The position numbers and the translations under genes are program-made. The notes under the pieces are model-generated. The model had not been told where the DNA came from, ran no database searches, and saw only the letters and a list, made by a program, of their open reading frames with translations. From a virus, in the IMG/VR virus record IMGVR_UViG_3300035564_000037, positions 1 through 37,835 of that record: a stretch of 37,835 nt of DNA; one strand, 5' to 3'. Below, in pieces: positions 2,847-37,404 of the stretch. Each line of letters begins with the position of its first letter. Positions within the stretch are counted from its first letter, which is position 1.

Positions 2847-3053
2847 ATGGATACCGCCCACGTTCACGAGTTTGTTTTGGATGACACGTTTGAAATGTTT
2901 CGCGTCATCCAGTACAAAGAGTGGTATTGCGCGGTTGGCATCTGTGCTTGTGGTGAGCGCAAATTGCTAGAGGTGGACTTCCTCACCTTCCGCAAGTATG
3001 AACGTGCATTAGAGCACAAAGATAAGGTGATCCTTGACCCTGCCAAACGATAA
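2847..3053 (+). CDS. Hypothetical protein with CxC motif
   Basis: A 68-aa soluble protein between portal and MuF genes. I chose the ATG at 2847, directly after the stop of the small membrane ORF (TAG-C-ATG), so translation may be coupled; a TTG at 2808 would add 13 residues. It contains a GICACGERK motif that could be half of a metal site, and a charged C-terminus. I do not recognise the family. The 3-prime end overlaps the next gene by 20 bp, typical of this compact head operon. Confidence 0.65.
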   Translation: MDTAHVHEFVLDDTFEMFRVIQYKEWYCAVGICACGERKLLEVDFLTFRKYERALEHKDKVILDPAKR

Positions 3054-4038
3054 CACCAGTCCGCTAATCCGCCAGGTGGAACGACTGCGCCAGGCTCAGC
3101 GCTTCCGCGAGGCGGCCGAGTTGGAGCGGCTGGTACGGGCGTTCGTGTCCATCCATAACGCGGTGCAAGCCAAGGCGGATGCGCTTGCCGTCAAGTTGTC
3201 CACCCTGGATCGTGTCCCAACACGCGGGGAACTGGTGCGCATGGCGCAGTACAAGGACGCGATTGAAACGGCGCAAGAGGAGCTTGATAAATATGCAACA
3301 TTCATGCAGGTCGAATTACAAACTACATCACACGAGGCAGTTACGTTCGGAGAGATTGATGCGCGTCAACTTAGTAAAATTGCGGCTCAATCTGCAGGAA
3401 TATCAGCTCAATTTAGGACGCTCTCTCCTGACATCATTACTCAACTTGTCGGCTTCCTTGATCCCCGTGGCCCACTCTACAAACGCCTGGATGGAATGCC
3501 GGGATATACCGCCGACCAGGTCAGCGAACGACTGATTGAGGGCGTGGGCATGGGGCAAAACCCGAAGGTGATTGCGGCGGGCATCACGAACACGCTAGGC
3601 ATGGCGCTGACTGACAGTCTGCGCATGACCAGGACCGTCCAGTTGTGGTCATACCGCGAGGCATCAAGAGCCTCGTATGTCGCTAACAATGATGTGGTTG
3701 GCTATTGGGTTTGGTACGCCGATTTAGCAAACGCTTGCCCTGCTTGTGTGGTCATGCACGGGTCAGAACACCCGCTAGACGAACCGCTAGACGATCATCA
3801 CAACGGAGGATGTACGCCCATCCCTATGCTGACAGGACAAACAAACTATATCGAGCAGGGGGCGGACTGGTTCGCCAATCAGAGCGAGGAACAGCAAAAG
3901 GCGACGCTGGGTGATACGAAGTGGCAAGCCTGGAAGGATGGCAAGTTCAAACTTGCGGACCTGCCGCAGCAAACACCGAATGATGTATACGGCATGATGC
4001 GCACAGAGCGCAGTCTAAAGGATTTGGTGGGCGAATGA
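3034..4038 (+). CDS. MuF-type minor head protein
   Basis: Minor capsid protein likely bound to the portal inside the head (phage Mu gpF / SPP1 gp7 family). The 334-aa protein has a helical N-terminal half (1-150, rich in Arg, Gln and Ala) and a C-terminal MuF-like region with TRTVQLWSYREASRASY near residues 190-205, then a Cys/His cluster ACPACVVMHGSEHP near 234-247 and HHNGGCTPIP near 254-263. In known families such clusters stabilise the fold. The start is TTG at 3034, with AAGGT five bases upstream and overlap with the previous gene. The stop overlaps the next start (ATGA). Confidence 0.82.
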   Translation: MTLPNDNTSPLIRQVERLRQAQRFREAAELERLVRAFVSIHNAVQAKADALAVKLSTLDRVPTRGELVRMAQYKDAIETAQEELDKYATFMQVELQTTSHEAVTFGEIDARQLSKIAAQSAGISAQFRTLSPDIITQLVGFLDPRGPLYKRLDGMPGYTADQVSERLIEGVGMGQNPKVIAAGITNTLGMALTDSLRMTRTVQLWSYREASRASYVANNDVVGYWVWYADLANACPACVVMHGSEHPLDEPLDDHHNGGCTPIPMLTGQTNYIEQGADWFANQSEEQQKATLGDTKWQAWKDGKFKLADLPQQTPNDVYGMMRTERSLKDLVGE

Positions 4039-4982
4039 AGTTTCTCGTTTGCGGATATGGAAGCATTGCCAAACGGCATATCCAAAACATTCGCGCTATT
4101 CAGTCGGATGCGCGAATAACTGTGCTTCGACATGCCCCAGGCGAGGAAACAATACAGGGCGTTGATCGGGTGGTGTATTCGCTTGCTGATGCCTTGCGGG
4201 ACAACCCACGGGCAGCGCTGATCACCAATCCGGCGAGTATGCACATTTGCACCGCGCTGGCATTGGCAGAACAAGGCGTGCATTTGTTTATCGAGAAACC
4301 ATTATCGGACAGATGGGATTGCGTCACTGAGTTGTTCGATCTATGCACCAAGAGAAAGCTAGTGTTATTGGTTGGGTATCAGTACCGATTTTATGAGCCG
4401 CTTATTGCAGTAAAACAGGCCATTGATGAGGGCTTGATTGGGCGCATCCTGTCTATCCGTGCTGAGGTTGGGCAGTATCTACCCGATTGGCGACCAGGGG
4501 TAGACTACAGGATTGGCGTAAGCGCAAGAAGTGAATTAGGCGGCGGCGCGATATTTGAGCTAAGTCACGAATTAGATTATGTGCGCTGGTTTGGCGGTGA
4601 CGTAAAGGCCGTAAACGCGCTTTATAACCACATTAGCGAGTTGGATACAAACGTTGAAGATTTGGCCGAGATCATTCTCCAATTCAACTCGGGCGCGATT
4701 GGGTCCATCCATCTTGACTTTTTACAGCACCAACCCTACCGGATGCTAAAGATCATCGGGCAGAATGGCATGTTAGCTTGGAACGGCATGGATCACCTGG
4801 TGCATCATTTCTCCAACGATGCAAACCGATGGGAGTGCTTATACTGCGGCACGCGGGACGAATTGAAACTAGCGTATATCCGCGAGTTGCAATACTTTAT
4901 CGACTGCATCCATGAGGATCGCATGATTGATAGCGCCGAAGCCCTGGAAACCTTGCGGCTCATTATGAGGGTCAAGGCGTGA
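4035..4982 (+). CDS. Gfo/Idh/MocA-family oxidoreductase
   Basis: NAD(P)-dependent sugar or sugar-nucleotide dehydrogenase/reductase of the Gfo/Idh/MocA family, acting in the cytoplasm. The N-terminal Rossmann motif CGYGSIAKRH is at residues 6-15. The family signature EKPLS, with its conserved lysine, lies near 87-91. The substrate domain contains GGGAIFELSHELDYVRWFGG near 172-191, whose His is typical of the active site. At 315 aa it is slightly short but complete. It overlaps the MuF gene by 4 bp (ATGA) and the next gene by 4 bp (GTGA), so it is co-translated with head genes. Members often make unusual sugars for surface glycans; the exact substrate cannot be read from sequence. Confidence 0.9.
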   Translation: MKFLVCGYGSIAKRHIQNIRAIQSDARITVLRHAPGEETIQGVDRVVYSLADALRDNPRAALITNPASMHICTALALAEQGVHLFIEKPLSDRWDCVTELFDLCTKRKLVLLVGYQYRFYEPLIAVKQAIDEGLIGRILSIRAEVGQYLPDWRPGVDYRIGVSARSELGGGAIFELSHELDYVRWFGGDVKAVNALYNHISELDTNVEDLAEIILQFNSGAIGSIHLDFLQHQPYRMLKIIGQNGMLAWNGMDHLVHHFSNDANRWECLYCGTRDELKLAYIRELQYFIDCIHEDRMIDSAEALETLRLIMRVKA

Positions 4983-5728
4983 GAACCTTTACGCAGATGA
5001 TGGACTTGACTGATCGCGTTGCCCTAGTCACTGGCGGGACTGGTCATTTGGGCGGCGTGATCTGCGATACATTGACCGAGTTGGGCGCTGCCGTGGTAAG
5101 CGTTGATTGCCACGATAGCACGATTATCATGGATTTACAGGATGAGGTCAGTATTCGCAAACTTCCCAGGCTGATTACCAAAAGTCACGGGCGGCTTGAC
5201 ATCCTGGTAAACTGCGCGGCGTTGGTAGGAACATCCCTACTGTCTGGGTGGGGCGTGCCGTTCCACCAACAAAGCGCCGACACCTGGCGCAAGGCGTTGG
5301 AACTAAACTTGACTGTACCGTTTATCCTCAGTCAGATATTTGATGACATGCTCACCCAATCAGGACATGGAACGATTATCAATATCTCATCGATCTATGG
5401 CGTGGTTGGTCCTAATATGTCGCTTTACCAAAACACGAACATGGGCAACCCTGCCGCGTACGGCGCAAGCAAGGCGGGTCTGTTGCAACTTACACGCTAC
5501 CTGGCAACAAATCTGGCCCCACGGGTGCGCGTGAACGCCATAACCCCAGGCGGGATACTCAGGGGCCAGCCGGCTAGTTTCGTGGATGCCTATACTACAC
5601 TTACCCCCTTTGGGCGCATGGCGACCGAGGAAGATTTCAAGGGCGCGATTGGCTATCTTGCCAGTGACTTATCAAGTTACATGACAGGCCAAAACCTGAT
5701 CGTGGATGGGGGATGGACGGCATGGTGA
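4979..5728 (+). CDS. Short-chain dehydrogenase/reductase (SDR)
   Basis: Classical SDR, using NAD(P)H to oxidise or reduce an alcohol/carbonyl, here most likely on a sugar or sugar nucleotide. The cofactor loop TGGTGHLG is at residues 18-25 and NCAA near 79-82 replaces the usual NNAG. The catalytic Ser is in INISSIYG near 135, and the Tyr and Lys are in YGASK near 160-164. PGGI and the C-terminal MTGQNLIVDGGW are also classical. A segment before the Tyr (NTNMGNPAA) is longer than usual. It starts at GTG overlapping the preceding oxidoreductase stop. Together the two genes look like a small sugar-modification pathway carried by the phage. Confidence 0.92.
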   Translation: MRTFTQMMDLTDRVALVTGGTGHLGGVICDTLTELGAAVVSVDCHDSTIIMDLQDEVSIRKLPRLITKSHGRLDILVNCAALVGTSLLSGWGVPFHQQSADTWRKALELNLTVPFILSQIFDDMLTQSGHGTIINISSIYGVVGPNMSLYQNTNMGNPAAYGASKAGLLQLTRYLATNLAPRVRVNAITPGGILRGQPASFVDAYTTLTPFGRMATEEDFKGAIGYLASDLSSYMTGQNLIVDGGWTAW

Positions 5729-5731
5729 AGT

Positions 5732-5833
5732 ATGTCTGACCGCGATTTCTGGCTGATGATTCGCCGCGCCTTGTTGATGATCTGCAAGGCGATTGAAAAG
5801 CGTTGGTGCACTGAGGAGGTTGTTACCGAGTGA
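5732..5833 (+). CDS. Small basic amphipathic protein
   Basis: A 33-aa ORF three bases after the SDR stop. It reads as one amphipathic, arginine-containing helix (DFWLMIRRALLMICKAIEKR) followed by an acidic tail. Short DRxFW...RRALLxIxxAIxKR proteins are familiar as hypothetical genes in phages, usually near structural genes; their role is unknown. The ribosome site (GGTGAAG) is weak, so translation may depend on coupling to the SDR. A promoter-like TATAAT lies just beyond the stop. Confidence 0.55.
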   Translation: MSDRDFWLMIRRALLMICKAIEKRWCTEEVVTE

Positions 5834-5860
5834 TTGTTGTCAGTGCGTGTATAATGATAT
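5833..5860 (+). promoter_or_regulatory. Promoter-like motif ahead of scaffold/capsid genes (site A)
   Basis: Contains a perfect TATAAT (5850-5855) directly preceded by TG, after ATTGTTGTCAGTGC. A TTGTCA at 5837 is too close (7 bp) to be the -35 for this -10, so a conventional sigma70 reading needs an extended -10 or another factor. A similar 25-base motif occurs at 34998-35022 just before the holin-like cluster. Position in the longest gap of the head region supports a late-gene promoter. Confidence 0.5.
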
Positions 5861-5861
5861 T

Positions 5862-6007
5862 AACTCAATAAAACGCCCGTTCGCCGCAAGGCCACCGGAC
5901 ACAGGCTGAACCGCCGCACACGCGCCCGTTCTGAGCAATCAGAAACGGGCGCTTTTCGTTTTCACCCTCCGTCCACCAAGACGGCATAAACCGGATAAAG
6001 GGAAACC
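5862..6007 (+). ncRNA. Candidate structured 5-prime leader of the scaffold/capsid operon
   Basis: About 145 nt between the promoter-like site and the scaffold ATG. The octamer CGCCCGTT occurs twice, at 5874-5881 and 5923-5930, while its complement AACGGGCG occurs once, at 5944-5951. The two copies therefore compete for one partner, which would allow two alternative folds, one of them the terminator-like hairpin. GC-rich segments CGCCGCAAGG and ACCGCCGCAC lie between them. This is the arrangement of an attenuator or riboregulator, but the regulatory role is inference. Confidence 0.4.
5922..5960 (+). terminator. Rho-independent terminator or attenuator hairpin
   Basis: GCGCCCGTT at 5922-5930 pairs with AACGGGCGC at 5944-5952, extended by CTGA/TCAG around a GCAA tetraloop with one bulged A. 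It is followed at once by TTTTCGTTTT. This is a strong intrinsic terminator shape. It sits downstream of the promoter-like TATAAT and about 50 nt before the scaffold gene, so it either ends the upstream transcript or attenuates the capsid transcript. Confidence 0.75.
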
Positions 6008-6586
6008 ATGTCAGATCAACCGAACGTTACTCCCGCTCTTACCCTAACCTCGCAGGTCCAGCCAACGGCCACCACGCCGGTAACAACTGGGGGCAAAACC
6101 TACACCGAGGCGGAACTAGAGCAAATCATCAAGGATCGCTTAGGGCGTGAAAAGGTCAAGTCAGAAAAGGCCGTGCAAGAAGCCGCTGACCGTGCCGCCC
6201 AGGAAGCAGCCGCCAAGAATGGCGAGTGGGAGAAAGTCGCCAAAGCAAACGAGGCGAAGTTGGCTGAGTTGCAAGGCGCACTCAAAAACCGCGAACTGCT
6301 GGACCTGAAACGCACCATCGCTGAGCGGATCGGGCTAGACCCCAAGTTGGCCAGCCGCCTGAATGGTGACACAGAAGCGGACATTGAAACGGATGCCAAA
6401 GCCCTCCTTGAAACCCTACCAAAACAACCCAAGCCCGGCCCCGGTATTGTGACCAACCCAGGACCAAACGCCACACCGCAGAACACAGAGAACGAAATGC
6501 TACAACGCATACATCACGGCGGCGCAAACGTATGGGGATTAGCAGCCAAAGGCGAGGCGGGCGGGGGATTTGTAATCAACGAATAA
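6008..6586 (+). CDS. Capsid scaffolding protein
   Basis: Internal scaffold that guides major capsid assembly and then leaves the head. The 192-aa protein has a Thr/Pro-rich N-terminus, then a long charged Ala/Glu/Lys helix predicted as coiled coil (about 33-105), then a Pro/Gly-rich linker (138-155) and a short C-terminal segment. This composition, and its place 14 bp before the major capsid gene, fit phage scaffolds of the DUF4355/gp20 type. AAAGGGA lies just before the ATG. No protease motif is visible, so maturation cleavage, if any, must come from elsewhere. Confidence 0.85.
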   Translation: MSDQPNVTPALTLTSQVQPTATTPVTTGGKTYTEAELEQIIKDRLGREKVKSEKAVQEAADRAAQEAAAKNGEWEKVAKANEAKLAELQGALKNRELLDLKRTIAERIGLDPKLASRLNGDTEADIETDAKALLETLPKQPKPGPGIVTNPGPNATPQNTENEMLQRIHHGGANVWGLAAKGEAGGGFVINE

Positions 6587-6600
6587 CAGGATAAAACCTC

Positions 6601-7431
6601 ATGGCTTCCGAAGCTACGTATGCTGCATTTTCAAGCCTCATGCCCTCGATCTATCAGGCATCCTACCTGACTGCCCGTGAACAGGGCATCATGGCTCAAC
6701 TCGTAACCACATGGACCGGCTCCGGCCTCATGCCTCGCATCTTTGGCACGACCTCGGGCGGAACCGCTCAGACCTTAGCTGAAACTGGCGATGGCGCAAA
6801 CCAGGCTTTTGCTGGAACCGCCAGCGGGACCGTTACCCCGGCGATCATCTACGCTCAGTACTTCGTCAACGATACCGCCCGCGACAGCGATCCTCAGATC
6901 GCAACCCTCGCCGGTGGTGAGTTGGGCGGCATCCTGGGCCAGAAACTTGACACCGATCTGTGCGCCCTGTTCTCGTCCTTTGCGGGAACCGTGGGTACCG
7001 GAACCGTCATGCTGACCTGGGCGAACATCATGTACGCCGCGATGAAACTGCGCGCCAACCTCGCCCCGATGCCGTATGTCTGCGTCATCAACCCGATGCA
7101 CTGGTACGGGCTGGGGACCGTGGGCAGCGCGTCCGTCCCGTTCCCACTGAACGCGCCGGCATACCTGAACGAACTGGCGCAGTCGCCCTACTTCATGGGC
7201 AACTTCGGCGGGATCGCGATGTTCCTGGACGGCAACGTCACCCAGGCGGTCGGTGGGGGCATCTTCTCGCCCCAGGCAATCGCGGTGGACATTCGCCGGG
7301 CTTTGCGCATTGAAGCGCAGCGGGATGCCTCTCGCGGTGGTGGCGGGTACGAACTGAACGCCTCCATGATCTACGGGAAGGGCGTTTGGCGCTCATCGTT
7401 CGGCTACAACCTGCTCGGAACGATCACCTAA
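6601..7431 (+). CDS. Major capsid protein
   Basis: Main shell protein, probably HK97 fold. The 276-aa protein follows the scaffold. It has a helical N-terminus, an acidic/glycine-rich loop region (TLAETGDGANQAF near 58-70), and a TARDSDPQIATLAGGELG segment near 97-114 resembling the spine helix. The C-terminal beta-rich part includes an IAVDIRRALRIEAQRDASRGG segment, typical of capsid proteins. Codon choice is noticeably GC-rich compared with neighbours, as often seen for a highly expressed gene. A 9-bp perfect inverted repeat follows about 10 bp after the stop. Confidence 0.88.
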   Translation: MASEATYAAFSSLMPSIYQASYLTAREQGIMAQLVTTWTGSGLMPRIFGTTSGGTAQTLAETGDGANQAFAGTASGTVTPAIIYAQYFVNDTARDSDPQIATLAGGELGGILGQKLDTDLCALFSSFAGTVGTGTVMLTWANIMYAAMKLRANLAPMPYVCVINPMHWYGLGTVGSASVPFPLNAPAYLNELAQSPYFMGNFGGIAMFLDGNVTQAVGGGIFSPQAIAVDIRRALRIEAQRDASRGGGGYELNASMIYGKGVWRSSFGYNLLGTIT

Positions 7432-7441
7432 GAATGATTAT

Positions 7442-7500
7442 GGGCGGGGATAGGGTCACGTGCCTGACAAGCGCAGCCCTCCCTCCGCGCTTCCCCGCCC
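7442..7500 (+). promoter_or_regulatory. GC-rich inverted repeat after the major capsid gene
   Basis: GGGCGGGGA at 7442-7450 is the exact reverse complement of TCCCCGCCC at 7492-7500, with a 41-nt loop containing further short complementary pieces. Only TGTTT follows, so it is not a textbook terminator. It could partly stop readthrough, or protect the capsid mRNA 3-prime end, keeping the glycosyltransferases at lower level than the capsid. Confidence 0.5.
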
Positions 7501-7533
7501 TGTTTGGGAGGATGCTCATGGAGGTGAGCAGTT

Positions 7534-8679
7534 ATGAAATTTACATGGCTATCTAACGCGCCCTGGGCGCCATCCGGCTACGGACAGCAAACCAGGATCA
7601 ACGTACACCGAATCGCAAATCCAACCACGGGACACCAGGCGGGTATCATCTGTGCGCCTGGGCTTGAAAGCGGGATGATGAAAGTTTCCGATAACGTAAC
7701 CTGTATGCCGCATGGAGCAAGTCCTTATGGTGGGGATGTGTTTGTACCCCACTCTCAGGCATTCGGGGCGCAGTTCGGCATCTCGCTCACTGATGTTTGG
7801 TGCTTACCCGCTGAGGATTACCCGCTGTCATTACATTGGGTAGCATGGTATCCGGTTGACCATGAACCCATGCCGCCAATCATTCGCACCAAACTCAATA
7901 GCTCATGGAAGCGCATCGCAATGAGCCAGTTTGGGGTAGCCCAAACTCACTTGATGGGAATGGATTGCAGTTATATCCCCATGTCGCTCGAAAAGGATGT
8001 GATGTTCCCGCACGATAAAGCGGCCTGCCGCAAAGAGTTGGGTATGCCAGAGGATAAGTTTATTTGCGGGATCGTTGCGATGAACAAGGGCAACCCATCC
8101 CGGAAAAACTTCGTGGAGCAAATCGCGGCCTTCGCAAACTGCAAGCGCCGTCACTCCAATATGTTCTTGTGGCTCCAAACCGAAAGCGGCATGTTCGGCG
8201 GCGATCTGGTCAACCTGCCTGAGTACATGCGTGCGCTGGGACTGGTAGAGGAACAAGATTACCTGTTCTGCAACCAGTACGGCCTGCACATGGGCTTTCC
8301 TGGTGATTACATGGCGAAGGTCTTTAGCTCCCTGGACGTTCTTCTAGCGGTCGGCGCAGGCGAGGGATTTGGGATACCCATCATCGAGGCGCAGGCTTGC
8401 GGCTGCCCGGTGATCGCCGGTGACTGGACGGCAATGACTGAACTGGTCAACGCTGGGCGGCTGATTGACCGCAAGGACGCCTTTGCGCAGTACTCGACTT
8501 ACTACGCCTTTCTATATCGTCCCCACGTGCGTGCGGTTGAACTGGCGATTGAGGCCGAATACCGCAAGCCAACGCCCACGGCGAAGGCGGTCAAGTGGGT
8601 GCATGAGAACTACGACGCGGACGCGGTTTACCTCAAGCATTGGGTCCCGGTCCTGGCAGAGATCGAGGCGGCGCTATGA
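7534..8679 (+). CDS. GT-B glycosyltransferase (GT4-like)
   Basis: Transfers a sugar from an activated donor to an acceptor in the cytoplasm. The 381-aa protein has an N-terminal Rossmann half beginning FTWLSNAPWAPSGYGQQT, where the Gly-rich loop should face the acceptor. The C-terminal half has a GIVAMNKGNPSRKNF segment near 181-195 and the retaining GT4 E-x7-E signature in GEGFGIPIIEAQACGCPVIAG near 274-294. Its ATG is preceded by GGAGGTGAG. It overlaps the next glycosyltransferase by 4 bp, so the two are made together. No membrane segment is visible. The acceptor is unknown: virion protein, host glycan or DNA are all possible. Confidence 0.88.
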   Translation: MKFTWLSNAPWAPSGYGQQTRINVHRIANPTTGHQAGIICAPGLESGMMKVSDNVTCMPHGASPYGGDVFVPHSQAFGAQFGISLTDVWCLPAEDYPLSLHWVAWYPVDHEPMPPIIRTKLNSSWKRIAMSQFGVAQTHLMGMDCSYIPMSLEKDVMFPHDKAACRKELGMPEDKFICGIVAMNKGNPSRKNFVEQIAAFANCKRRHSNMFLWLQTESGMFGGDLVNLPEYMRALGLVEEQDYLFCNQYGLHMGFPGDYMAKVFSSLDVLLAVGAGEGFGIPIIEAQACGCPVIAGDWTAMTELVNAGRLIDRKDAFAQYSTYYAFLYRPHVRAVELAIEAEYRKPTPTAKAVKWVHENYDADAVYLKHWVPVLAEIEAAL

Positions 8680-9356
8680 ACGACGCGCTCATCATCCAAC
8701 AATGTACCTCTACAAACTCATGGCAGATGCCCTGGTCGTTGTCATTCATCGACATGCAGAGATTGGCCCAGCCGCGTCACATGGCCTACGCACGGGCGCA
8801 CAAGTTCGATCTGTGGTCCATCTACGGCGACATTCATCCAGAATACAAGCCTGGCGCATGGTCAAAGATTTGGCTCATCATCGACGCGCTAAAGGCCAAG
8901 TATGAGTATGTCGTATGGATTGACAGCGACGCGGCAATCATGGACTTTGAGGCTGATTTGCGCAACGCGCTCCCGGCTGACAAGTACATTGGTGCGGTGC
9001 TGCATACCCCTGACAAAAGCGCGTACTTGAAACTTCATCAAGTCCCGCCTCACATGAACGTAGGCGTGATGTACATTCGCAATTCGTCCAGGGTGCGCAT
9101 GTTCTTTGATGAGTGGTTAGCGGCCTGGCCTACTGATATTCGTTTCATCGAGCAGGCCGTTTTCAACGAACTAACAGCCAGTCCTAAGTACCGCGACCTG
9201 GTTCACTGCGTGGATGATGCCTACAACGCGACGGTCAATGTCAACATGGTCAAGAAACCCATCGTCAAGGGCTATCACGGGGTAATGCCGCCCGAAAAAC
9301 GGCTGGACCTGATGAAGATCGACCTTGCCGACGACTTTATGAAGTTCAGGGTTTAG
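8676..9356 (+). CDS. GT-A glycosyltransferase (galactosyltransferase-like)
   Basis: A 226-aa GT-A fold glycosyltransferase. The metal-binding DxD motif is in VVWIDSDAAIMDF near residues 79-91. A preceding KPGAWSKIWLIIDAL segment and a later HMNVGVMYIRNS segment (near 126-137) match the GMA12/MNN10 or related nucleotide-sugar transferase families, where the Asn/Gly stretch contacts the donor. The DD and YHG motifs near 178-203 may supply further active-site residues. I chose the ATG at 8676 (ATGA overlap with the GT-B gene). It ends 8 bp before the connector gene, so it is embedded in the head operon. Confidence 0.82.
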   Translation: MNDALIIQQCTSTNSWQMPWSLSFIDMQRLAQPRHMAYARAHKFDLWSIYGDIHPEYKPGAWSKIWLIIDALKAKYEYVVWIDSDAAIMDFEADLRNALPADKYIGAVLHTPDKSAYLKLHQVPPHMNVGVMYIRNSSRVRMFFDEWLAAWPTDIRFIEQAVFNELTASPKYRDLVHCVDDAYNATVNVNMVKKPIVKGYHGVMPPEKRLDLMKIDLADDFMKFRV

Positions 9357-9364
9357 GAGGTGCG

Positions 9365-9919
9365 ATGCGATCCACAATGCAGATATTGGTAGATGAACTT
9401 CGCGGGATGACCAACACGGCCCCGGCGGATTACAGCATTGGAAGTATTTCCTACTGGAATGATGACCAGATCCAAACCATCCTGGACCGCAACCGCAAGT
9501 ATCAAAACCAACTGCCGCTAGAAGCTGTTCTAACCATCGCGCCGGGCAACCTTCCCAGCTACACCCTTTACAAGACGTGCATGCGCAAGTGGGAAAGCGG
9601 CGCGGAAGTCCTGGACTATAACGCGGCGGTGGTAAGTTCAACGCTTTACACCTTCGCGCCGGACATTGGAGAGATCACATTCCTGGCCGATCAGAAGGCG
9701 GCATACTACACCCTGCGCGGCTACACCTACGACATGAACGCGGCAGCCGGGCAGGTATGGCGACAAAAGGCCGCGCACTACGCCAGTGCCTACGATGTGA
9801 GTACGGACAACCACAACTTGAAACGTTCGCAGCTCATCATCCAGGCGCGTGAAATGGCCGCGATGTATGAGGGCATGAGCGGCTCCAATGTGATCTACGC
9901 CGAGCGGGGGGATATGTGA
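9365..9919 (+). CDS. Head-tail connector (adaptor) protein
   Basis: A 184-aa protein in the usual adaptor position after the capsid block. The N-terminus MQILVDELRGMTNT followed by YWNDDQIQTILDRN resembles phage connector proteins of the gp6/gp15 type, which bind the portal ring from below. A C-terminal helix (KRSQLIIQAREMAAMYEGM) would pack against the portal. GGAGGTGCG lies directly ahead of the ATG. Assignment rests mainly on position and the N-terminal pattern. Confidence 0.72.
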   Translation: MRSTMQILVDELRGMTNTAPADYSIGSISYWNDDQIQTILDRNRKYQNQLPLEAVLTIAPGNLPSYTLYKTCMRKWESGAEVLDYNAAVVSSTLYTFAPDIGEITFLADQKAAYYTLRGYTYDMNAAAGQVWRQKAAHYASAYDVSTDNHNLKRSQLIIQAREMAAMYEGMSGSNVIYAERGDM

Positions 9920-18026: not shown

Positions 18027-18991
18027 GCAGATTAACGGCAACGATTGTTGAGGGCGGCGGGCAAGCTCCATTATCTTTAGACTTCTCGGATTTTCCTGGT
18101 ATTCCGGGATTTACCGGAGCATCCTGGGCGATTGTTGGCGGGGTAGCGGTAAATATCCCAACTCTAGGCACCGAGTCGCTTTCCAATGGCAACATGGAAA
18201 CTGGATCACCACCTACAGGATGGGACACAATTACGGCTACCCCCGCCTCGGTTGCAGACGAACGAACTGGCGGGACAGGCACTAAGGCGTTGCAGGTGAC
18301 GTTAGCATCCGGTAATTATGGGACGGTCTATCAAGCAATTGCAACGACAATTGGGAAGTTCCACGAGCTGACGTTCTGGGCCAAAAAAGGATCGGCTACG
18401 GCAGGTTATCAAACTACACCAGGAAGTGTTCTGGGAGTGGATTTCTTTCCTGCCGATGTAGCGTGGACACAATATAAAACTCATTACCTTGCAACGGCGG
18501 CGGCACCCCAAATCAGGGTAGGATGTTACGATGCAGGCACAACCCTATATGATGATTTCTCCGACAAGGAAATTATAGGAGTTTTCGCGGGGTTTAGTTT
18601 TGCACAAAAATTCATCACAGTAAAGGGTGCTTTGACCCTGGCAGAACTCAACACCTTTGAAGGCGTGTTCCTGGCAGGAAACACCGCCGCGCCAGTATCG
18701 GGCGTATTCGCGGTAGGGTTTTTATATGCGGCGGGCTATATTCGGTTGGTGTTGTACAAGTTGGTCAACAATACTTATACCGTTCTCGCAACAAATGACG
18801 TGGCTTATGTGGCCGGGGCGTTTATTGAAATTCGCAGAACCGCCAATACCACCTTCCAGTCATGGTACAACAACACGCAAGTCGGAACGGACCAAACCGT
18901 TTCGGATTCCGCAATTATCAACAACACTTATGTGGGGATGTTATCGACAGGAGGCTCTGGAAATTCCATCGGTTCCTTTTTTCTGCTCTAA
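18023..18991 (+). CDS. Tail fiber protein with carbohydrate-binding domains
   Basis: A 322-aa probable receptor-binding protein. Residues 55-175 contain ESLSNGNMETGSPPTGW, the usual start of a carbohydrate-binding jelly-roll. Residues 190-322 form a second lectin-like sandwich ending SIGSFF. The frame stops just after a T6 run at 18977-18982. One base fewer in that run would join it, without a stop, to the SGNH hydrolase domain. Whether the stop is real, programmed or a sequencing error is open. ATGA overlap with the BppU-like gene. Confidence 0.65.
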   Translation: MSRLTATIVEGGGQAPLSLDFSDFPGIPGFTGASWAIVGGVAVNIPTLGTESLSNGNMETGSPPTGWDTITATPASVADERTGGTGTKALQVTLASGNYGTVYQAIATTIGKFHELTFWAKKGSATAGYQTTPGSVLGVDFFPADVAWTQYKTHYLATAAAPQIRVGCYDAGTTLYDDFSDKEIIGVFAGFSFAQKFITVKGALTLAELNTFEGVFLAGNTAAPVSGVFAVGFLYAAGYIRLVLYKLVNNTYTVLATNDVAYVAGAFIEIRRTANTTFQSWYNNTQVGTDQTVSDSAIINNTYVGMLSTGGSGNSIGSFFLL

Positions 18992-18995
18992 TTAC

Positions 18996-19928
18996 TTGAC
19001 CCGTAACGATGCTTTCCTGGGAACCTCGATCACGGCGAATTTTATCTATGTCAATACGACGAATGATTATATTCGTACTCATTCACCATTCCCCAGCTTA
19101 CTCAGTACGGTCAACGCCGGGATTGGCGGGTCAACCTCCTGGTATGCTCTGGCTTCTCAATTGGAGGTGATCACCGCGAACAGCCCTGATGCCGTGTGTG
19201 TTGAATTTGCCGTGAACGATGCTTTTACCGAATTCTATGCTAAAACTGCCGAGGCACTGATTAGACGGATCAGGACGGTTTTACCATTGGCGCGGATTGT
19301 TTTTATTGCTTTCACGCGAGTAGGTGATCCTGCTGTGGACGACGCAACCAATCTCAACCAGGATATACACGACCGCTGGAAGGCGCTTTGCAACCTGTAC
19401 GGCGTGGCATTTGTGAGCTTTGCTGATGCGCTGGTATCTGCCGTTGCGGGCGGTGAGCATGTTGCCACTTACATGACAGATACTTTGCATCCAACGGCAA
19501 CAGGACACGCACTCGCCGCGACGGTTTTGGAAGCAACGATGGCAAGCGCCGTCAACGGTGGAACGATGCCGGTCCTACCCGCCAGGTTATATGATTGCGC
19601 AGACTTTGAGAACGCGCCGATTGTACGAAACGGAACGGATAACGAGGGCGAGACTGGAACATGGACAACCGTTTCAACAACCTCGCGTAGATCGACCGTC
19701 GCCAATAGCACAATAAGTTGGACGGGTACATTTGTATCTTGTGGCATCCAGACGGTTGATGGAGTTATATCCTGGCAGATTGACGGCGGGGCATGGACAC
19801 AATTGGACCTGACGAATTACGGGCCAGGAATTGAACTGACAACCACGGCGCTAGTTCGTGGAGTTCATACCCTGACGATCAGGGTTGATAGTGGAACGGT
19901 CCAGATTGATCGGTTTTTGTCGGTGTAA
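18996..19928 (+). CDS. SGNH/GDSL-type hydrolase domain protein (possibly 3-prime part of the fiber gene)
   Basis: An esterase-type hydrolase likely to deacylate host surface polysaccharide. Block I is FLGTSIT with Ser11 (GTS in place of GDS), block II GIGGST, block III FAVND, and block V DTLHPTATGH with Asp162 and His165. Residues 190-310 form a C-terminal beta-sandwich. I give the TTG at 18996 as start, but it has no ribosome site; the nearest AGGAGG is about 40 nt upstream. The open frame extends upstream across the T6 run into the tail fiber frame, so a fused reading is at least as likely. Confidence 0.7.
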   Translation: MTRNDAFLGTSITANFIYVNTTNDYIRTHSPFPSLLSTVNAGIGGSTSWYALASQLEVITANSPDAVCVEFAVNDAFTEFYAKTAEALIRRIRTVLPLARIVFIAFTRVGDPAVDDATNLNQDIHDRWKALCNLYGVAFVSFADALVSAVAGGEHVATYMTDTLHPTATGHALAATVLEATMASAVNGGTMPVLPARLYDCADFENAPIVRNGTDNEGETGTWTTVSTTSRRSTVANSTISWTGTFVSCGIQTVDGVISWQIDGGAWTQLDLTNYGPGIELTTTALVRGVHTLTIRVDSGTVQIDRFLSV

Positions 19929-19949: not shown

Positions 19950-20924
19950 ATGAACTACCCAAAATTCATTGACGTATCAGACTACCAGCCCGTTTTGACG
20001 GCTGCTGACTTGAAGGGACATATCAACGCCCTGGCCTGCAAAGCCTGTGAGGTTGACGATCAGGCGTGGGGCGTGGGCGACAGCGTAGACAAGTTTTGCG
20101 ATCCGAAACTTGCGGATAATGTCGAGTTGGCGTATCTATTAAATATCCCGTGTGCCTGCTATATCTTCGACAACCCAAACTATACCAGCGTGAACGGGGG
20201 CAGTTGGCAGGACCACAAGTTACATCCGAACTCAGGCGACCCGCGCATGTTAGCGCTACGGCAGGCGTTGAAGAACAAAACCTACCATGCAATTTGTATT
20301 GACGTTGAACGGTGGTGGGTACGGTACAACGAATATTACAGCAACCCAGGGACGGCGCTACGCATCCCGCCCTTGTGGATACGTGACAGCGCGGCTGACC
20401 TCATGCAGCGCATCAAGGAAGATCAAGCGGCTGGCATATTGCGCCAAGTTCCTATTTGGATATACACCGCCAAGTGGGTTGTTGATGCTTACAGCCCTGA
20501 GCTTGACACGTTCCTGGCTAATCAAATTCAGTGGTTAGCTGATTACACCACCCCTGTTTACACTGGCTCAAAGGGTAAGGTGATGACTTGGGAGGCGCTC
20601 AGCACGCTCATCGACGCGCAGTCATTCAACCCGAAATGGGTTGGCAACAAACGCGCCGAGATGCTCCAACTGACGGACGCGGTAACTGTCCCCGGCATCT
20701 ACAACACGGCAGGGGCAGCGCGGCCCGTTGACATTGACGTTTCACTTGTGGAACTCGCTAAGGTGTTCGCACCCGGCGAGTGGTCCGGGGTCACGCCCCC
20801 GCCGCCCCCCGTAGTTCCCCCAGTTGTGCCACCCGTTGACCTTGCGCCGATCATCGCACGCCTGGCCGAAGCAGAAGCGCGGGTCAAGGCATTGGAAGAT
20901 TGGAAAGCGAGAGTGCAGGCATGA
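19950..20924 (+). CDS. Endolysin, GH25-like muramidase
   Basis: Cell-wall hydrolase predicted to cleave the glycan backbone of peptidoglycan. It opens FIDVSDYQ (Asp8), the usual GH25 start, and has ICIDVERWW with Asp118 and Glu120 as the DxE catalytic pair. IWIYTAKW (near 172-179) and a WLADY segment follow the GH25 strand order. After residue 275 comes a proline-rich linker (PPPPPVVPPVVPPV) and a short coiled coil (AEAEARVKALEDW) instead of a recognisable wall-binding domain. No signal peptide, so release would need a holin. It lies in the tail-tip cluster, so a virion-bound role is possible. Confidence 0.8.
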   Translation: MNYPKFIDVSDYQPVLTAADLKGHINALACKACEVDDQAWGVGDSVDKFCDPKLADNVELAYLLNIPCACYIFDNPNYTSVNGGSWQDHKLHPNSGDPRMLALRQALKNKTYHAICIDVERWWVRYNEYYSNPGTALRIPPLWIRDSAADLMQRIKEDQAAGILRQVPIWIYTAKWVVDAYSPELDTFLANQIQWLADYTTPVYTGSKGKVMTWEALSTLIDAQSFNPKWVGNKRAEMLQLTDAVTVPGIYNTAGAARPVDIDVSLVELAKVFAPGEWSGVTPPPPPVVPPVVPPVDLAPIIARLAEAEARVKALEDWKARVQA

Positions 20925-22567
20925 GCCACACAGGACTGGACCCAGCATTGATGTTGACGGTGGTGTTGAACCAGGGAGCGGCTCCCAAGACTTATTACCT
21001 GGATGCAACTGGCGGAAACGATGCCAATACGGGATTGTCTACCGCCGCACCCTGGCAGACTATCGCCAAAGTAAACGGATCAACTTTCAATGCGGGTGAA
21101 ACGATTTGTTTCAAGAGAGGAGAGGCTTGGAGCACAACGCAACTATTAATAACCCAATCGGGCGCAGCGGGGAAACCGCTTATATTTGATGCTTATGGTA
21201 GTGGAGCGCAGCCCCTAATCCAATCGCCTGTAGGTGCGAACAATCGGGCTGTGTATATTACCGGGAATTATGTGACCGTTAAAAATATTCACACCTTGTC
21301 GCAGGAACACAAGACCAACCTAGCGTACTGCATCGAGGCGACCGGACACGATATAACGATAGACACCTGCACGGCGGAAGGAAACAAGACATTAGGCACG
21401 CCGTTCAACAATGCCCACGGAATCAATATTGATGGCGCGGCGGCAGCTTGCTACAACATTATTGTTCAAAACTGCACTGTGTATAACTGCGCCTGCACCA
21501 ATGGGCGCATGGGAATTGTTGCGGCTAACGCGACTTATCCGGGTCCAACTGATGTGCAATTTCTAAACAACACCGTTCACGATGTTGGCATTATGACGTA
21601 TACCTACAATCAATTTGGTATGTATTTTCTGAGGGTCAATCGCGGTTTGATGTCTGGAAATCTGGTTTACAACACGGACAGCGACGGTATTCAGATTGAA
21701 TATACAACCAATAGCGTTGTCGAAAAAAATACTGTGCATCATGCCGGAATAAATGGAATTACGATTTTCTTTGCATCGGCTGGCGATAATCTCATTATAC
21801 GTAATAATCTGGTATACCTCAGCCGCCGCAACGGGTTTACATATGACAACTCCTGTGCTGAAGCAAATGTATTCCATAACACATTCGTAAACAACGCCAC
21901 GGCAGTTACCAATTGTTATGGAATTTCATTACCGACAACCACCATTGGGGCCAATATTCAAAATAATCTTATTGTTCAGGATGCCGCCGTGGTTTTTTCG
22001 GGGGCTACCTGCATGAGAGCCGAAGACGACACCGTTATCGATAACTCGACAGCCATCGATTACAACTGTTGTATATTCCTGAACTACACCACTCCAGATC
22101 GTGCGCATAAAGTCGGCGGTGTATACAAGAGTTTGGCTAACTGGAAGCTGGCGGGGACCACAAAACATCCTGATGCTCATGGTATTTCAGTTGATCCAAA
22201 ATTATCAAGTTCTGTCTACACCGCAGTAGACGCCGACAGCAACAGCGGCCAGAAGGTTCTAAACGTAGCATCTACTGTGGGATTTAATGCCGGAGATATA
22301 GTCGCAATTTGCCCAGATGGGGCAAGGCATGAGTATGGTACTATCGATACGATCCAGGCCGGGGTTAGTTTGACTTTATTGGTCAACCTAACCAGCACTC
22401 ACACCGCAGCGCAGACTGATGTTGTGATGTCATGTGTATGGACAAATTTCCACCTACAATCTACCAGCCCATGCCGGGGAGCGGGTGTCAATGTTGGGGT
22501 ATTGACTGACTTCGATGGAGTTGCACGGCCCGATCCGCCCTCAATCGGCGCATATGAGTTCGTATGA
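20921..22567 (+). CDS. Right-handed parallel beta-helix protein (tailspike/depolymerase candidate)
   Basis: A 548-aa protein starting at ATG 20921, overlapping the endolysin stop. The N-terminus has YYLDATGGNDANTGLS then APWQTIAKVN, the common start of DUF1565-type beta-helix proteins. The middle (about 90-390) is a series of strand-turn repeats rich in Asn and Val (VKNIHT, IIVQNCTVYNC, LMSGNLVYN, SVVEKNTVHH, LIIRNNLVYLS). The C-terminus, FDGVARPDPPSIGAYEF, is the usual end of such helices. It probably binds or cuts a host polysaccharide as a tailspike. Catalytic residues cannot be assigned. Confidence 0.75.
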   Translation: MSHTGLDPALMLTVVLNQGAAPKTYYLDATGGNDANTGLSTAAPWQTIAKVNGSTFNAGETICFKRGEAWSTTQLLITQSGAAGKPLIFDAYGSGAQPLIQSPVGANNRAVYITGNYVTVKNIHTLSQEHKTNLAYCIEATGHDITIDTCTAEGNKTLGTPFNNAHGINIDGAAAACYNIIVQNCTVYNCACTNGRMGIVAANATYPGPTDVQFLNNTVHDVGIMTYTYNQFGMYFLRVNRGLMSGNLVYNTDSDGIQIEYTTNSVVEKNTVHHAGINGITIFFASAGDNLIIRNNLVYLSRRNGFTYDNSCAEANVFHNTFVNNATAVTNCYGISLPTTTIGANIQNNLIVQDAAVVFSGATCMRAEDDTVIDNSTAIDYNCCIFLNYTTPDRAHKVGGVYKSLANWKLAGTTKHPDAHGISVDPKLSSSVYTAVDADSNSGQKVLNVASTVGFNAGDIVAICPDGARHEYGTIDTIQAGVSLTLLVNLTSTHTAAQTDVVMSCVWTNFHLQSTSPCRGAGVNVGVLTDFDGVARPDPPSIGAYEFV

Positions 22568-26474: not shown

Positions 26475-26693
26475 ATGGATAAACAATTTGATAATGCGTC
26501 GGTGGTGGTTACGTTTCGGGCAACGCCAGAAGAAAACGAGGCGCTTGTCCAGGCTGCGAAATTGTCTGGCCGTTCTCGCGCTGATGTTATGCGCCGGTTG
26601 GCCTGCCTGGTGAATACGTCCGCTGGGCGTGCGATCCTGGGGATTGTGACAGAAACAACGCCCGCTGTCAATGAATGGGTCAAGGGGGAGTGA
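26475..26693 (+). CDS. Ribbon-helix-helix-like DNA-binding protein
   Basis: A 72-aa protein with a predicted strand (SVVVTFRATPEEN) followed by two helices (EALVQAAKLSGRSRADVMRRLA), the layout of ribbon-helix-helix regulators such as Arc/CopG, which bind DNA as dimers. GGAGG precedes the ATG. It is the first plus-strand early gene, directly beside the divergent promoters, so it is the best candidate for regulating them. Its stop overlaps the next start (TGATG). Confidence 0.65.
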   Translation: MDKQFDNASVVVTFRATPEENEALVQAAKLSGRSRADVMRRLACLVNTSAGRAILGIVTETTPAVNEWVKGE

Positions 26694-27742
26694 TGCTGGA
26701 ATACCACGAATACGCCAATCTATTCCCTATGATGAACCCCGCCGAGCTGGGGCAGCTTTGCGACGACATGCGGGCAACGGGCTACGACAAAACCGCACCA
26801 ATTGTTTTGTGTGATGGGAAAATTCTCGACGGGCGTAATAGACAACTGGCAGCGGATACGGTGGGGGTTATACCTGAATATTCTATGTTCGTGGGTGATG
26901 ACCCTCTGGCTTATGTCATCCGTCACAACTTGCACCGGCGACACTTGAACGAAAGTCAACGGGCAATGGTGGGGGCTAGGATTGCGGATATGAAACGTGG
27001 GCGGCAGGCATTAAATACATCAATTGATGTATTTGTTTCACAGCCAAAGGCAGCAGAAATGATGAATGTGGGGGTTGCGACGGTACAGCGTGCCCGTCAA
27101 GTTATTGACCACGGCACTCCCGAAATCATAGCCAAAGTTGAAAGCGGGGAAATGGCTGTCAGCCGGGCGATACAAGAAATAAAACGCGCCGAAGTTATCA
27201 ACCACCTGGAGAATATCGAGGCTAAGGAAGTAAAAGCTACAACCGGTGTTTATGACGTGATCGTGATCGATCCGCCCTGGGATATGGAAAAGATCGAGCG
27301 TGATGTGGCACCAAATCAAGTAGGGTTTGAATATCCTACGATGTCAGACGATGAAATCAAAAGCCTATCCATTCCGTTTGATGATAACTGCCACGTCTGG
27401 TTATGGACAACGCACAAGAAACTACCCTATGCCTTTGAATTATTGAAAGCGTGGGGATTGAAATATGTATGTACCTTCACGTGGCACAAACCAGGCGGCT
27501 TCCAACCTTTCGGACTTCCACAATACAATTGTGAGTTCGCATTATACGCAAGACGCGGAACGCCAGTGTTCAATGAGACTAAAAATTTCATGGTTTGCTT
27601 TACTGCACCCCGACGGGCACATAGTGAAAAACCAGAAGAATTTTACGAAGTTGTAAGAAGGGTTACACCTGGAAGGCGGTTAGATATGTTTAATCGTCGA
27701 TCTATTGAAGGTTTTGATACATGGGGAAACGAGGCTAAATGA
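26693..27742 (+). CDS. ParB-like / MT-A70 adenine methyltransferase fusion
   Basis: A 349-aa fusion. Residues about 10-90 are a ParB/Srx-type nuclease-like domain with VLCDGKILDGRNRQLAA. Residues 95-150 contain a helix-turn-helix (QPKAAEMMNVGVATVQRARQ) that could give sequence specificity. From about 185 comes an MT-A70 methyltransferase with the catalytic DPPW at 193-196 and AdoMet-fold strands around VWLWTTHKK. It should make N6-methyladenine in DNA. A perfect 22-bp palindrome lies inside its coding sequence at 27013-27034. The downstream gene overlaps by 4 bp. It may protect phage DNA from restriction or mark it for the phage's own nuclease. Confidence 0.9.
   Translation: MLEYHEYANLFPMMNPAELGQLCDDMRATGYDKTAPIVLCDGKILDGRNRQLAADTVGVIPEYSMFVGDDPLAYVIRHNLHRRHLNESQRAMVGARIADMKRGRQALNTSIDVFVSQPKAAEMMNVGVATVQRARQVIDHGTPEIIAKVESGEMAVSRAIQEIKRAEVINHLENIEAKEVKATTGVYDVIVIDPPWDMEKIERDVAPNQVGFEYPTMSDDEIKSLSIPFDDNCHVWLWTTHKKLPYAFELLKAWGLKYVCTFTWHKPGGFQPFGLPQYNCEFALYARRGTPVFNETKNFMVCFTAPRRAHSEKPEEFYEVVRRVTPGRRLDMFNRRSIEGFDTWGNEAK
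27013..27034. repeat. Perfect 22-bp palindrome inside the methyltransferase gene
   Basis: AAATACATCAA followed directly by its exact reverse complement, with CAATTG at the centre and no mismatch. It sits in the helix-turn-helix part of the ParB/MT-A70 gene. Such a long perfect palindrome in a coding region is unlikely by chance and suggests a binding site for a dimeric protein, perhaps the ribbon-helix-helix protein or the methyltransferase itself. Confidence 0.85.
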
Positions 27743-35805: not shown

Positions 35806-36163
35806 CATAGCGGCCATCATCATCGGGGTGATTGCTTCCCTTCCTGGCGTTGTTGCGTTGTATATTCAGTGGCGCAAGGACAAGCACAAAGAACCCCAAG
35901 AAGATGTCAACGAAGGGCTTACTGCGTCTCGTGACGCGGCCTCCACGGTGATTACCTATTCCGGTGAACTGCGTAATGTGCGCATCGAGCTAAGTGAAGT
36001 GCGCGCCGAAGTTTTCAAGTTAACTGCTGAGCGTCAGGCCGACAAGATGCTGATTGCAGAATGGCAATATGGAATTGAGCGCCTAATTGCACAACTGGTG
36101 AGCATGGACATTACCCCAGTATGGCGACCCAGGCCCAAAGACGCAGGAAAGGCGGCGGGTTGA
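35795..36163 (+). CDS. Membrane-anchored coiled-coil protein (holin or spanin-like)
   Basis: A 122-aa protein with one N-terminal hydrophobic segment (IAAIIIGVIASLPGVVALYI) then a long charged coiled coil (about 55-100, with RNVRIELSEVRAEVFKL). Such anchor-plus-coil proteins occur beside phage lysis genes. It overlaps the preceding gene by 11 bp and the following methyltransferase by up to 43 bp. Role is inferred only from layout and position. Confidence 0.65.
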   Translation: MDANIAAIIIGVIASLPGVVALYIQWRKDKHKEPQEDVNEGLTASRDAASTVITYSGELRNVRIELSEVRAEVFKLTAERQADKMLIAEWQYGIERLIAQLVSMDITPVWRPRPKDAGKAAG

Positions 36164-37404
36164 GCGAGATCACCTGGACACTGCAAACCGTTGACGTTGC
36201 CAGTCTCACGGACTATTTCAAAAACCCGCGCAGTCTGTCAAAGGAACAGTTTGCACAACTCAAAACCAGCCTTGACAAGTTTGGCATGATCGACAAGCCG
36301 ATCATCAATCTTGACGCGGCGCACACCGTCATCGGCGGTCACCAGCGCCTTCACGTTATCCGGTCAGAAGGTATCAAGCAGGTTGAAGCCTGGATACCCT
36401 CGCGTGAACTGGACGGGCGTGAGGTTGAGGAATTGAATATCAGGCTCAACAAGAACACCGGCGCATGGGACTTCGATGTGCTGGCGAATGCCTGGGATGT
36501 GCCTGACCTGCTGGAATGGGGGTTTAGCGAGAAAGAATTACAACTCGGCGGTTTTGACCTTGACCAGCCCGAAGGCGAAGACCCAGGCGCACAAATTGAC
36601 AAGGCTGAGGAACTGCGCGTTAAGTGGGGCGTGGAGTCGGGCCAGTTGTGGAAGCTGGGCGAGCATAGGCTGATATGCGGCGACTGCACGGACAGAGCGG
36701 TGGTTGACCAAGTTATGCAAGGCGACAAAGCGGAGATGGTCTGGACAGACCCGCCCTATGGTGTGGCGGTTGGTGACAAGAACAAATACCTGAACGCGAT
36801 TGCTCCGAGCAATCGCGTAGAAGAGAACCTAGTGAACGATACCCTGGATGAACCAGGACTTATCAAGATGTTGTGCAAGTCTTTTGATTTAGCTATCGAG
36901 CATTGCACCGCCGGGGCCGCGTGGTATGTAGCGGCCCCGCCGGGGCCGCTACATGTGGTGTTCGGGCAGGTTCTCAAGGACCGGGGAATATGGCGTCAGA
37001 CAATTCAGTGGGTAAAAAACAACTCGACATTCTCCCCGATGGGCGTTTGCTATCACTGGCAGGCCGAACCCATCTTCTTCGGGTGGTTGCCCAGCGCTGG
37101 ACATCGTTGGTATGGAGGAAGAACCCAAACAACCGTTTGGAATATTGACCGACCGATGAAGTCACCAGAACACCCAACCATGAAGCCCGTTGAGTTGGTG
37201 GTAAGGGCTGTGCAAAACTCATCGAAACAAGGCGAGGTAGTTTACGAACCTTTTAGTGGATCGGGTACAACAATATGCGCCTGCGAACAACTTGGTAGAC
37301 TAGCCCGCGCCGTGGAAATCTCGCCCGCCTATTGCGCCGTGACAATCCAGCGCTGGGTTGACATGACGCAAGGCACGCCGGAATTGATGGATACAACGCA
37401 ATAA
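36121..37404 (+). CDS. ParB-like / DNA amino-methyltransferase fusion
   Basis: A 427-aa fusion. Residues about 20-130 are a ParB-type domain with VIGGHQRLHVIR and LNIRLNKNTGAW. From about 180 comes an N4/N6 methyltransferase with HRLICGDCTD (near 181-190), catalytic DPPYG at 210-214 and EPFSGSGTT at 376-384. It probably methylates DNA just before packaging, being next to the terminase genes. The ATG at 36121 overlaps the upstream gene by 43 bp. A TTG at 36160 with AGGAAAGG upstream and a TTGA overlap is an equally good start that would drop 13 residues. No cognate nuclease is adjacent. Confidence 0.9.
   Translation: MATQAQRRRKGGGLSEITWTLQTVDVASLTDYFKNPRSLSKEQFAQLKTSLDKFGMIDKPIINLDAAHTVIGGHQRLHVIRSEGIKQVEAWIPSRELDGREVEELNIRLNKNTGAWDFDVLANAWDVPDLLEWGFSEKELQLGGFDLDQPEGEDPGAQIDKAEELRVKWGVESGQLWKLGEHRLICGDCTDRAVVDQVMQGDKAEMVWTDPPYGVAVGDKNKYLNAIAPSNRVEENLVNDTLDEPGLIKMLCKSFDLAIEHCTAGAAWYVAAPPGPLHVVFGQVLKDRGIWRQTIQWVKNNSTFSPMGVCYHWQAEPIFFGWLPSAGHRWYGGRTQTTVWNIDRPMKSPEHPTMKPVELVVRAVQNSSKQGEVVYEPFSGSGTTICACEQLGRLARAVEISPAYCAVTIQRWVDMTQGTPELMDTTQ

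Follow-up and report, generated by a model that had tools for sequence, protein, structure and literature searches.

Two enzyme pairs of different history in the head operon of a phage: a capsid-linked glycosyltransferase pair and an inserted nonulosonate-type oxidoreductase pair

We analysed the virus record IMGVR_UViG_3300035564_000037, a stretch of 37,835 bases referred to below as the window, in which four predicted carbohydrate enzymes lie among the genes of a phage head module. The module opens with the terminase large subunit (TerL, 1–1290), the first gene at the left end, and the portal (1300–2766). It continues, all on the plus strand, with a MuF-like head morphogenesis protein (3034–4038; weak PF04233 match, 5.9e-4, and a PHROG head morphogenesis match), a Gfo/Idh/MocA oxidoreductase (Gfo, 4035–4982; PF22725 1.7e-20, PF01408 9.4e-14), a short-chain dehydrogenase (SDR, 4979–5728; PF13561 5.6e-39), a capsid scaffolding protein (6008–6586; phrog_233 1.2e-18), the major capsid protein (MCP, 6601–7431), a GT-B glycosyltransferase (GT) of the GT4 type (7534–8679; PF13692 3.5e-9, phrog_2170 7e-24), a GT34-like GT-A glycosyltransferase (from the ATG at 8676 to 9356; PF05637 1.9e-7) and an adaptor-like protein (9365–9919). 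The stop codon of MuF overlaps the start of Gfo (ATGA at 4035), and 4-bp overlaps also join Gfo to SDR (GTGA at 4979) and GT4 to GT34 (ATGA at 8676). As judged from sequence motifs, the residues expected for activity are retained in all four enzymes: EKP and SHELD in Gfo, S138 and Y161xxxK165 in SDR, EGFGxPxxE in GT4, and D83-S-D85 in GT34, where both aspartates are invariant. The MCP had no match in Pfam and was identified through relatives annotated as capsid proteins (about 31% identical) and through a predicted HK97-like model (pLDDT 77), whose matches are phage capsids and encapsulins. A sequence-only reading of this DNA had described the four enzyme families as interleaved with MuF, scaffold and MCP genes, with 4-bp overlaps within each enzyme pair. 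The Pfam and PHROG matches, the MCP model and the coordinates bear out this description, which was largely right and had missed a small open reading frame (ORF) and a hairpin between SDR and the scaffold gene.

The GT pair is linked to the capsid gene well beyond this phage. In the closest relative, L001, MuF, scaffold, MCP, GT4 and GT34 follow each other in the same order, the MCP being 73%, GT4 74% and GT34 64% identical to those of the window. When four aligned GT4 sequences served as the query, at least 594 viral stretches proved to hold a relative. Out of the best 80 of these loci we used the 69 whose upstream sequence extends for 1 kb or more. In 56 of them (25 with the capsid type of the window and 31 with that of Pontimonas phage phiPsal1) a recognised MCP lay no more than 1.5 kb upstream of GT4. 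Non-independence of the relatives, and a query seeded from capsid-linked sequences, make this fraction descriptive only. Other major head proteins stood upstream of GT4 in three of the remaining 13 loci. Pairwise distances of GT4 and MCP were correlated (Mantel r = 0.68, n = 27, p = 0.0005), no less tightly than those of the MCP with the adaptor (0.51), the portal (0.43) or MuF (0.30), values that come from unequal subsets. On this comparison with relatives, GT4 and GT34 have long belonged to the phage head module, and the linkage of GT4 to the MCP extends over two capsid lineages.

The window carries an MCP-linked cassette: its core, a phrog_2170-type GT4, lies shortly after the MCP, a second GT comes next, and in relatives the cassette ends at the adaptor, whose family is kept at the same place. 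What stands behind GT4 varies among relatives and includes GT34 or GT2 types, epimerases, UDP-galactopyranose mutase, a methyltransferase, and B12 or radical-SAM proteins. UDP-galactopyranose mutase genes were seen in or near the GT cassette at L019:5505–6512, L029:4882–5901 and L047:3532–4530, and at L025:7215–8480 and L045:8315–9232 proteins with B12-binding and/or radical-SAM domains are flanked by two GT4-type genes. Another phage cassette contains a glutamyl/glutaminyl-tRNA-synthetase catalytic domain (L020:5453–6193). Two named phages share the order of MCP, homologous GT4 and then a further protein or GT: Microcystis phage Mae-JY09 (listed host Microcystis), in which the MCP is followed by GT4, a second protein and an epimerase, and phiPsal1, with a methyltransferase nearby. 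They differ from the window in that the second GT is of the GT2 type or has no detectable homology to that of the window, and in lacking the Gfo/SDR pair. The idea that the second protein of Mae-JY09 might be homologous to the window GT34 was discarded, as BLASTP gave no match.

The assignment of the second transferase as a GT34-like GT-A enzyme combines its PF05637 match, the DxD motif and a GT-A fold match. Its predicted model (pLDDT 87) matched best, in the PDB, domain 1 of A064R from chlorovirus PBCV-1 (2P6W; TM 0.69/0.74, 14% identity), and its four best PDB matches are all chains described as glycosyltransferase for the PBCV-1 major capsid. A064R domain 1 is a rhamnosyltransferase acting on the N-glycan of the PBCV-1 major capsid protein (PMC9614988). 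The two enzymes share a GT34-like fold with DxD, whereas A064R is a three-domain protein of a eukaryotic virus.

The other enzyme pair has its closest homologues in nonulosonate operons (legionaminic-type, for sialic-acid-like sugars), on which basis we regard Gfo and SDR as resembling PtmF and PtmA. PtmF and PtmA act early in the legionaminic pathway, towards GDP-GlcNAc. In the Plesiomonas legionaminic cluster the order is PtmE-PtmF (oxidoreductase)-LegF-PtmA, with PtmA in the first pathway segment (PMC4481668), and the arrangement of cj1329–cj1332 in Campylobacter jejuni matches it (PMC7245135). The window Gfo is 33–43% identical to Gfo proteins in or near nonulosonate operons, and shares with them a GQYLPxWRPxxDYR-type signature. 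It is 43% identical to the Gfo of the full legionaminic-type operon L115, ordered LegB-like-Gfo-CMP synthetase-SDR-NeuB-NeuC-NeuD-PtmE, and 37% to that of the Sulfitobacter plasmid L094, where a nucleotidyltransferase (CBS and NTP-transferase domains), Gfo, an acylneuraminate cytidylyltransferase and SDR are joined by 4-bp overlaps; for the SDR the respective identities are 58% and 54%. In Ensifer (L097), NeuC and NeuB lie upstream of Gfo-CMP-SDR. The Gfo of Halorussus caseinilyticus (L096) was removed from the family alignment, being only 23% identical. A single-sequence Gfo scan of viral contigs found nothing; the scan with the alignment gave seven matches, two of which (L123 and L124) covered just 24 residues and were discounted, and among genome contigs there were two matches only, both distant.

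In contrast to the operons of Campylobacter and Plesiomonas, the window lacks relatives of LegF, LegI, LegG, LegB and PtmE, and its Gfo and SDR are directly joined. Searching the window by tblastn for NeuB, NeuC, a CMP synthetase and a PtmE-type nucleotidyltransferase found none of the four, and a nonulosonate therefore cannot be finished by window genes alone. This rules out the complete pathway for making and attaching an unusual sugar that the sequence-only reading had proposed, since synthase, epimerase, CMP synthetase and nucleotidyltransferase are all absent. Moreover, no GT4 or GT34 enzyme is known to use CMP-nonulosonates, which leaves room for the two pairs to serve different products.

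Comparison of the MuF region with relatives locates the site at which Gfo and SDR stand. A conserved small ORF (MSDRDFWLMIRRALL..., 5732–5833, plus strand) directly follows SDR in the window, and its homologues in L001 (1295–1420), L022 and L024 overlap the end of MuF, which places Gfo and SDR exactly between MuF and the small ORF. None of the relatives compared has them at this junction, and L001 lacks both genes. Codon usage did not single out Gfo and SDR as recent arrivals (GC at third codon positions, 0.58–0.61), so that the case for insertion is made by the relatives and not by composition. By that comparison the pairs differ in history, the GTs being conserved and Gfo/SDR standing at this site here only among the relatives examined.

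Nonulosonate-type genes also occur in other phages. Contig L012, whose GT4 is 49% identical to that of the window, begins with a C-terminal fragment of NeuB at the contig edge, followed by an acetolactate-synthase-like thiamine diphosphate enzyme spread over two ORFs (L012:2–1925), directly upstream of MuF and coupled to it. At L118:8001–14098 a near-complete nonulosonate cassette, Gfo-CMP synthetase-SDR-NeuB-NeuC, lies between TerL and portal, and the viral contigs L119 and L120 carry Gfo-CMP-NeuB with NeuC nearby. From L012 and L118, nonulosonate-type genes apparently entered phage head or packaging modules more than once, and such repeated uptake would seem to keep a link to the virion possible for the Gfo/SDR pair.

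Downstream of the small ORF, ahead of the scaffold gene, we found a strong hairpin (5922–5952, plus strand) with a T-rich tail reaching 5962, resembling a terminator or attenuator, with a fold z of −2.9 in the window and −3.9 for the same interval in L001. Upstream of it lies a candidate −10-like promoter element, TATAATGAT (5850–5858, plus strand), present in L001 as well. A strict promoter and terminator scan of the region gave no excess over chance, which makes the promoter reading of TATAATGAT weak; that scan needs an unbroken stem and so missed the hairpin. Rfam returned no match. The hairpin separates Gfo and SDR from scaffold and MCP and, if it terminates transcription, they would be read with TerL, portal and MuF rather than with the MCP. 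The argument that co-expression with the capsid points to a virion target accordingly holds in part: the GT pair is tied to the MCP far beyond the window phage, whereas for Gfo/SDR co-expression is weakened by a hairpin that also occurs in L001. Just upstream of the scaffold start (about 5970–6007), the segment CCACCAAGnCG...AAACCGGATAA is strongly conserved with L001 (about 1543–1578).

The sugar enzymes had also been thought to occupy the usual slot of the capsid protease, which did not hold. The window has the SPP1-like head order TerL-portal-MuF-scaffold-MCP with no protease gene, and in relatives ordered portal-MuF-scaffold-MCP the interval from MuF to MCP holds no protease, be the enzymes present or absent. 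Phages that do bear a protease (phiPsal1 type) likewise have the GT pair behind the MCP. Replacement of a protease is thereby ruled out.

Taken as a whole, the locus is best explained, in our somewhat favourable judgement, by two modules of different history within one head operon, with the GTs directed to the virion and Gfo/SDR inserted. Since the GT pair is tied to the MCP far beyond the window phage, the reading that assumes least is a virion target, and position and structure (MCP linkage, co-inheritance and the GT34 model) suggest that the GTs probably act on the virion, most likely on the MCP itself. That Gfo and SDR work together with the GTs has a less than even chance. From the gene content, homology, position, co-inheritance and predicted folds seen here, we infer the following on substrates, acceptor and joint function. 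GT4 and GT34 would most likely assemble a short virion glycan, probably attached to the MCP, from host sugar nucleotides, one adding the first sugar and the other extending it. Gfo/SDR would represent a PtmF-PtmA-like pair inserted from a bacterial nonulosonate (legionaminic-acid-type) operon, which, by coupling an oxidation to a reduction, probably supplies an amino-sugar precursor or remodels one, and which would have to depend on host enzymes for activation and later steps.

The reported virion glycosylation by GTs of phages Che8, Corndog and Myrna (Freeman et al, 2023, as described in PMC12363180 and PMC11256854) provides a precedent: a tailed phage there brings its own GTs, few in number, adjacent and with 4-bp overlaps, and the reported targets are capsid and tail-tube proteins. 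Che8 gp108–110 are, however, GT2-methyltransferase, GT2 and GT25 proteins encoded at the right end of the genome, away from the MCP. Neither BLASTP nor hhalign gave a significant match between the Che8 and window GTs, which makes Che8 an analogy rather than a fellow member.

Several points weigh against our interpretation. In Che8, the nearest proven system, the GTs are unrelated and distant from the capsid genes, and a position beside the MCP is therefore neither required for virion glycosylation nor proof of it; this position could also persist through common descent. The match to A064R is at 14% identity and concerns a fold common to many enzymes with other acceptors. For the other pair, the SDR scores below the cut-off of the NCBIfam model FlagModPtmA (113.4 versus 350 bits), as do the SDRs of the L094 (112.5 bits) and L115 (149.5 bits) operons.

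Of the alternatives, the one that survives best touches the Gfo/SDR half alone and leaves room for virion glycosylation by the GTs. Gfo and SDR might be an auxiliary metabolic or passenger pair that has no connection with the GTs and simply lodges in the head operon, where it might supply glucosamine phosphate or act on another sugar, which we consider a real possibility, if still the lesser one. Their presence at the MuF site in the window phage only, among the relatives examined, the incomplete pathway and the hairpin separating them from scaffold and MCP would all fit a passenger, but both genes have kept their catalytic motifs and tight overlaps, and the independent nonulosonate-type insertion upstream of MuF in L012 suggests repeated uptake of sugar genes. 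We consider it unlikely that the enzymes instead modify the host surface, with Gfo/SDR shifting the host pool of nonulosonates or amino sugars and the GTs glycosylating a host glycan, leading to superinfection exclusion or release of progeny from receptors. Homologues of Gfo and SDR do occur in clusters with surface-polysaccharide genes or in full nonulosonate operons, and other phages carry nonulosonate cassettes; yet GT4 is coupled to and co-inherited with the MCP in two capsid lineages, and neither a flippase nor a gtr-type membrane-anchored GT was recognised in the cassette. Phage GTs can also glycosylate modified DNA bases, as in T-even phages, and the window encodes two predicted DNA methyltransferases (MT-A70, 26675–27742, and N6/N4-type, 36121–37404), but this reading is highly improbable here: the genes scanned, which were part of those in the window, included no recognisable hydroxymethylase or base-hypermodification gene, and the position of the cassette follows the MCP, not DNA metabolism.

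Returning to the two-module interpretation, what stands out as stronger and of wider reach is that a GT4 cassette with exchangeable partners is linked to the capsid gene; the reading as a single pathway is unsupported. Much more tentatively, capsid glycosylation could be modular in at least two tailed-phage capsid lineages, with an MCP-anchored GT4, a changeable second transferase and swapped-in sugar enzymes (epimerase, UDP-galactopyranose mutase or the nonulosonate-type pair), the sugar of the window phage coming from a borrowed legionaminic-acid segment completed by the host. Virion glycosylation has so far been demonstrated in few tailed phages. A GT beside the MCP in two capsid lineages, accompanied by sugar enzymes that can be exchanged, suggests that many environmental phages may have decorated capsids; such decoration would bear on the contacts of capsids with surfaces, predators and antibodies, and it also points to a new source of sugar enzymes. 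The named phage Mae-JY09 makes the idea of capsid decoration testable.

Elsewhere in the window, the tail region encodes a GDSL lipase/acylhydrolase domain (18726–19928), which could strip acyl groups off a host glycan, and a right-handed beta-helix protein at 20900–22567 is probably a tail spike.

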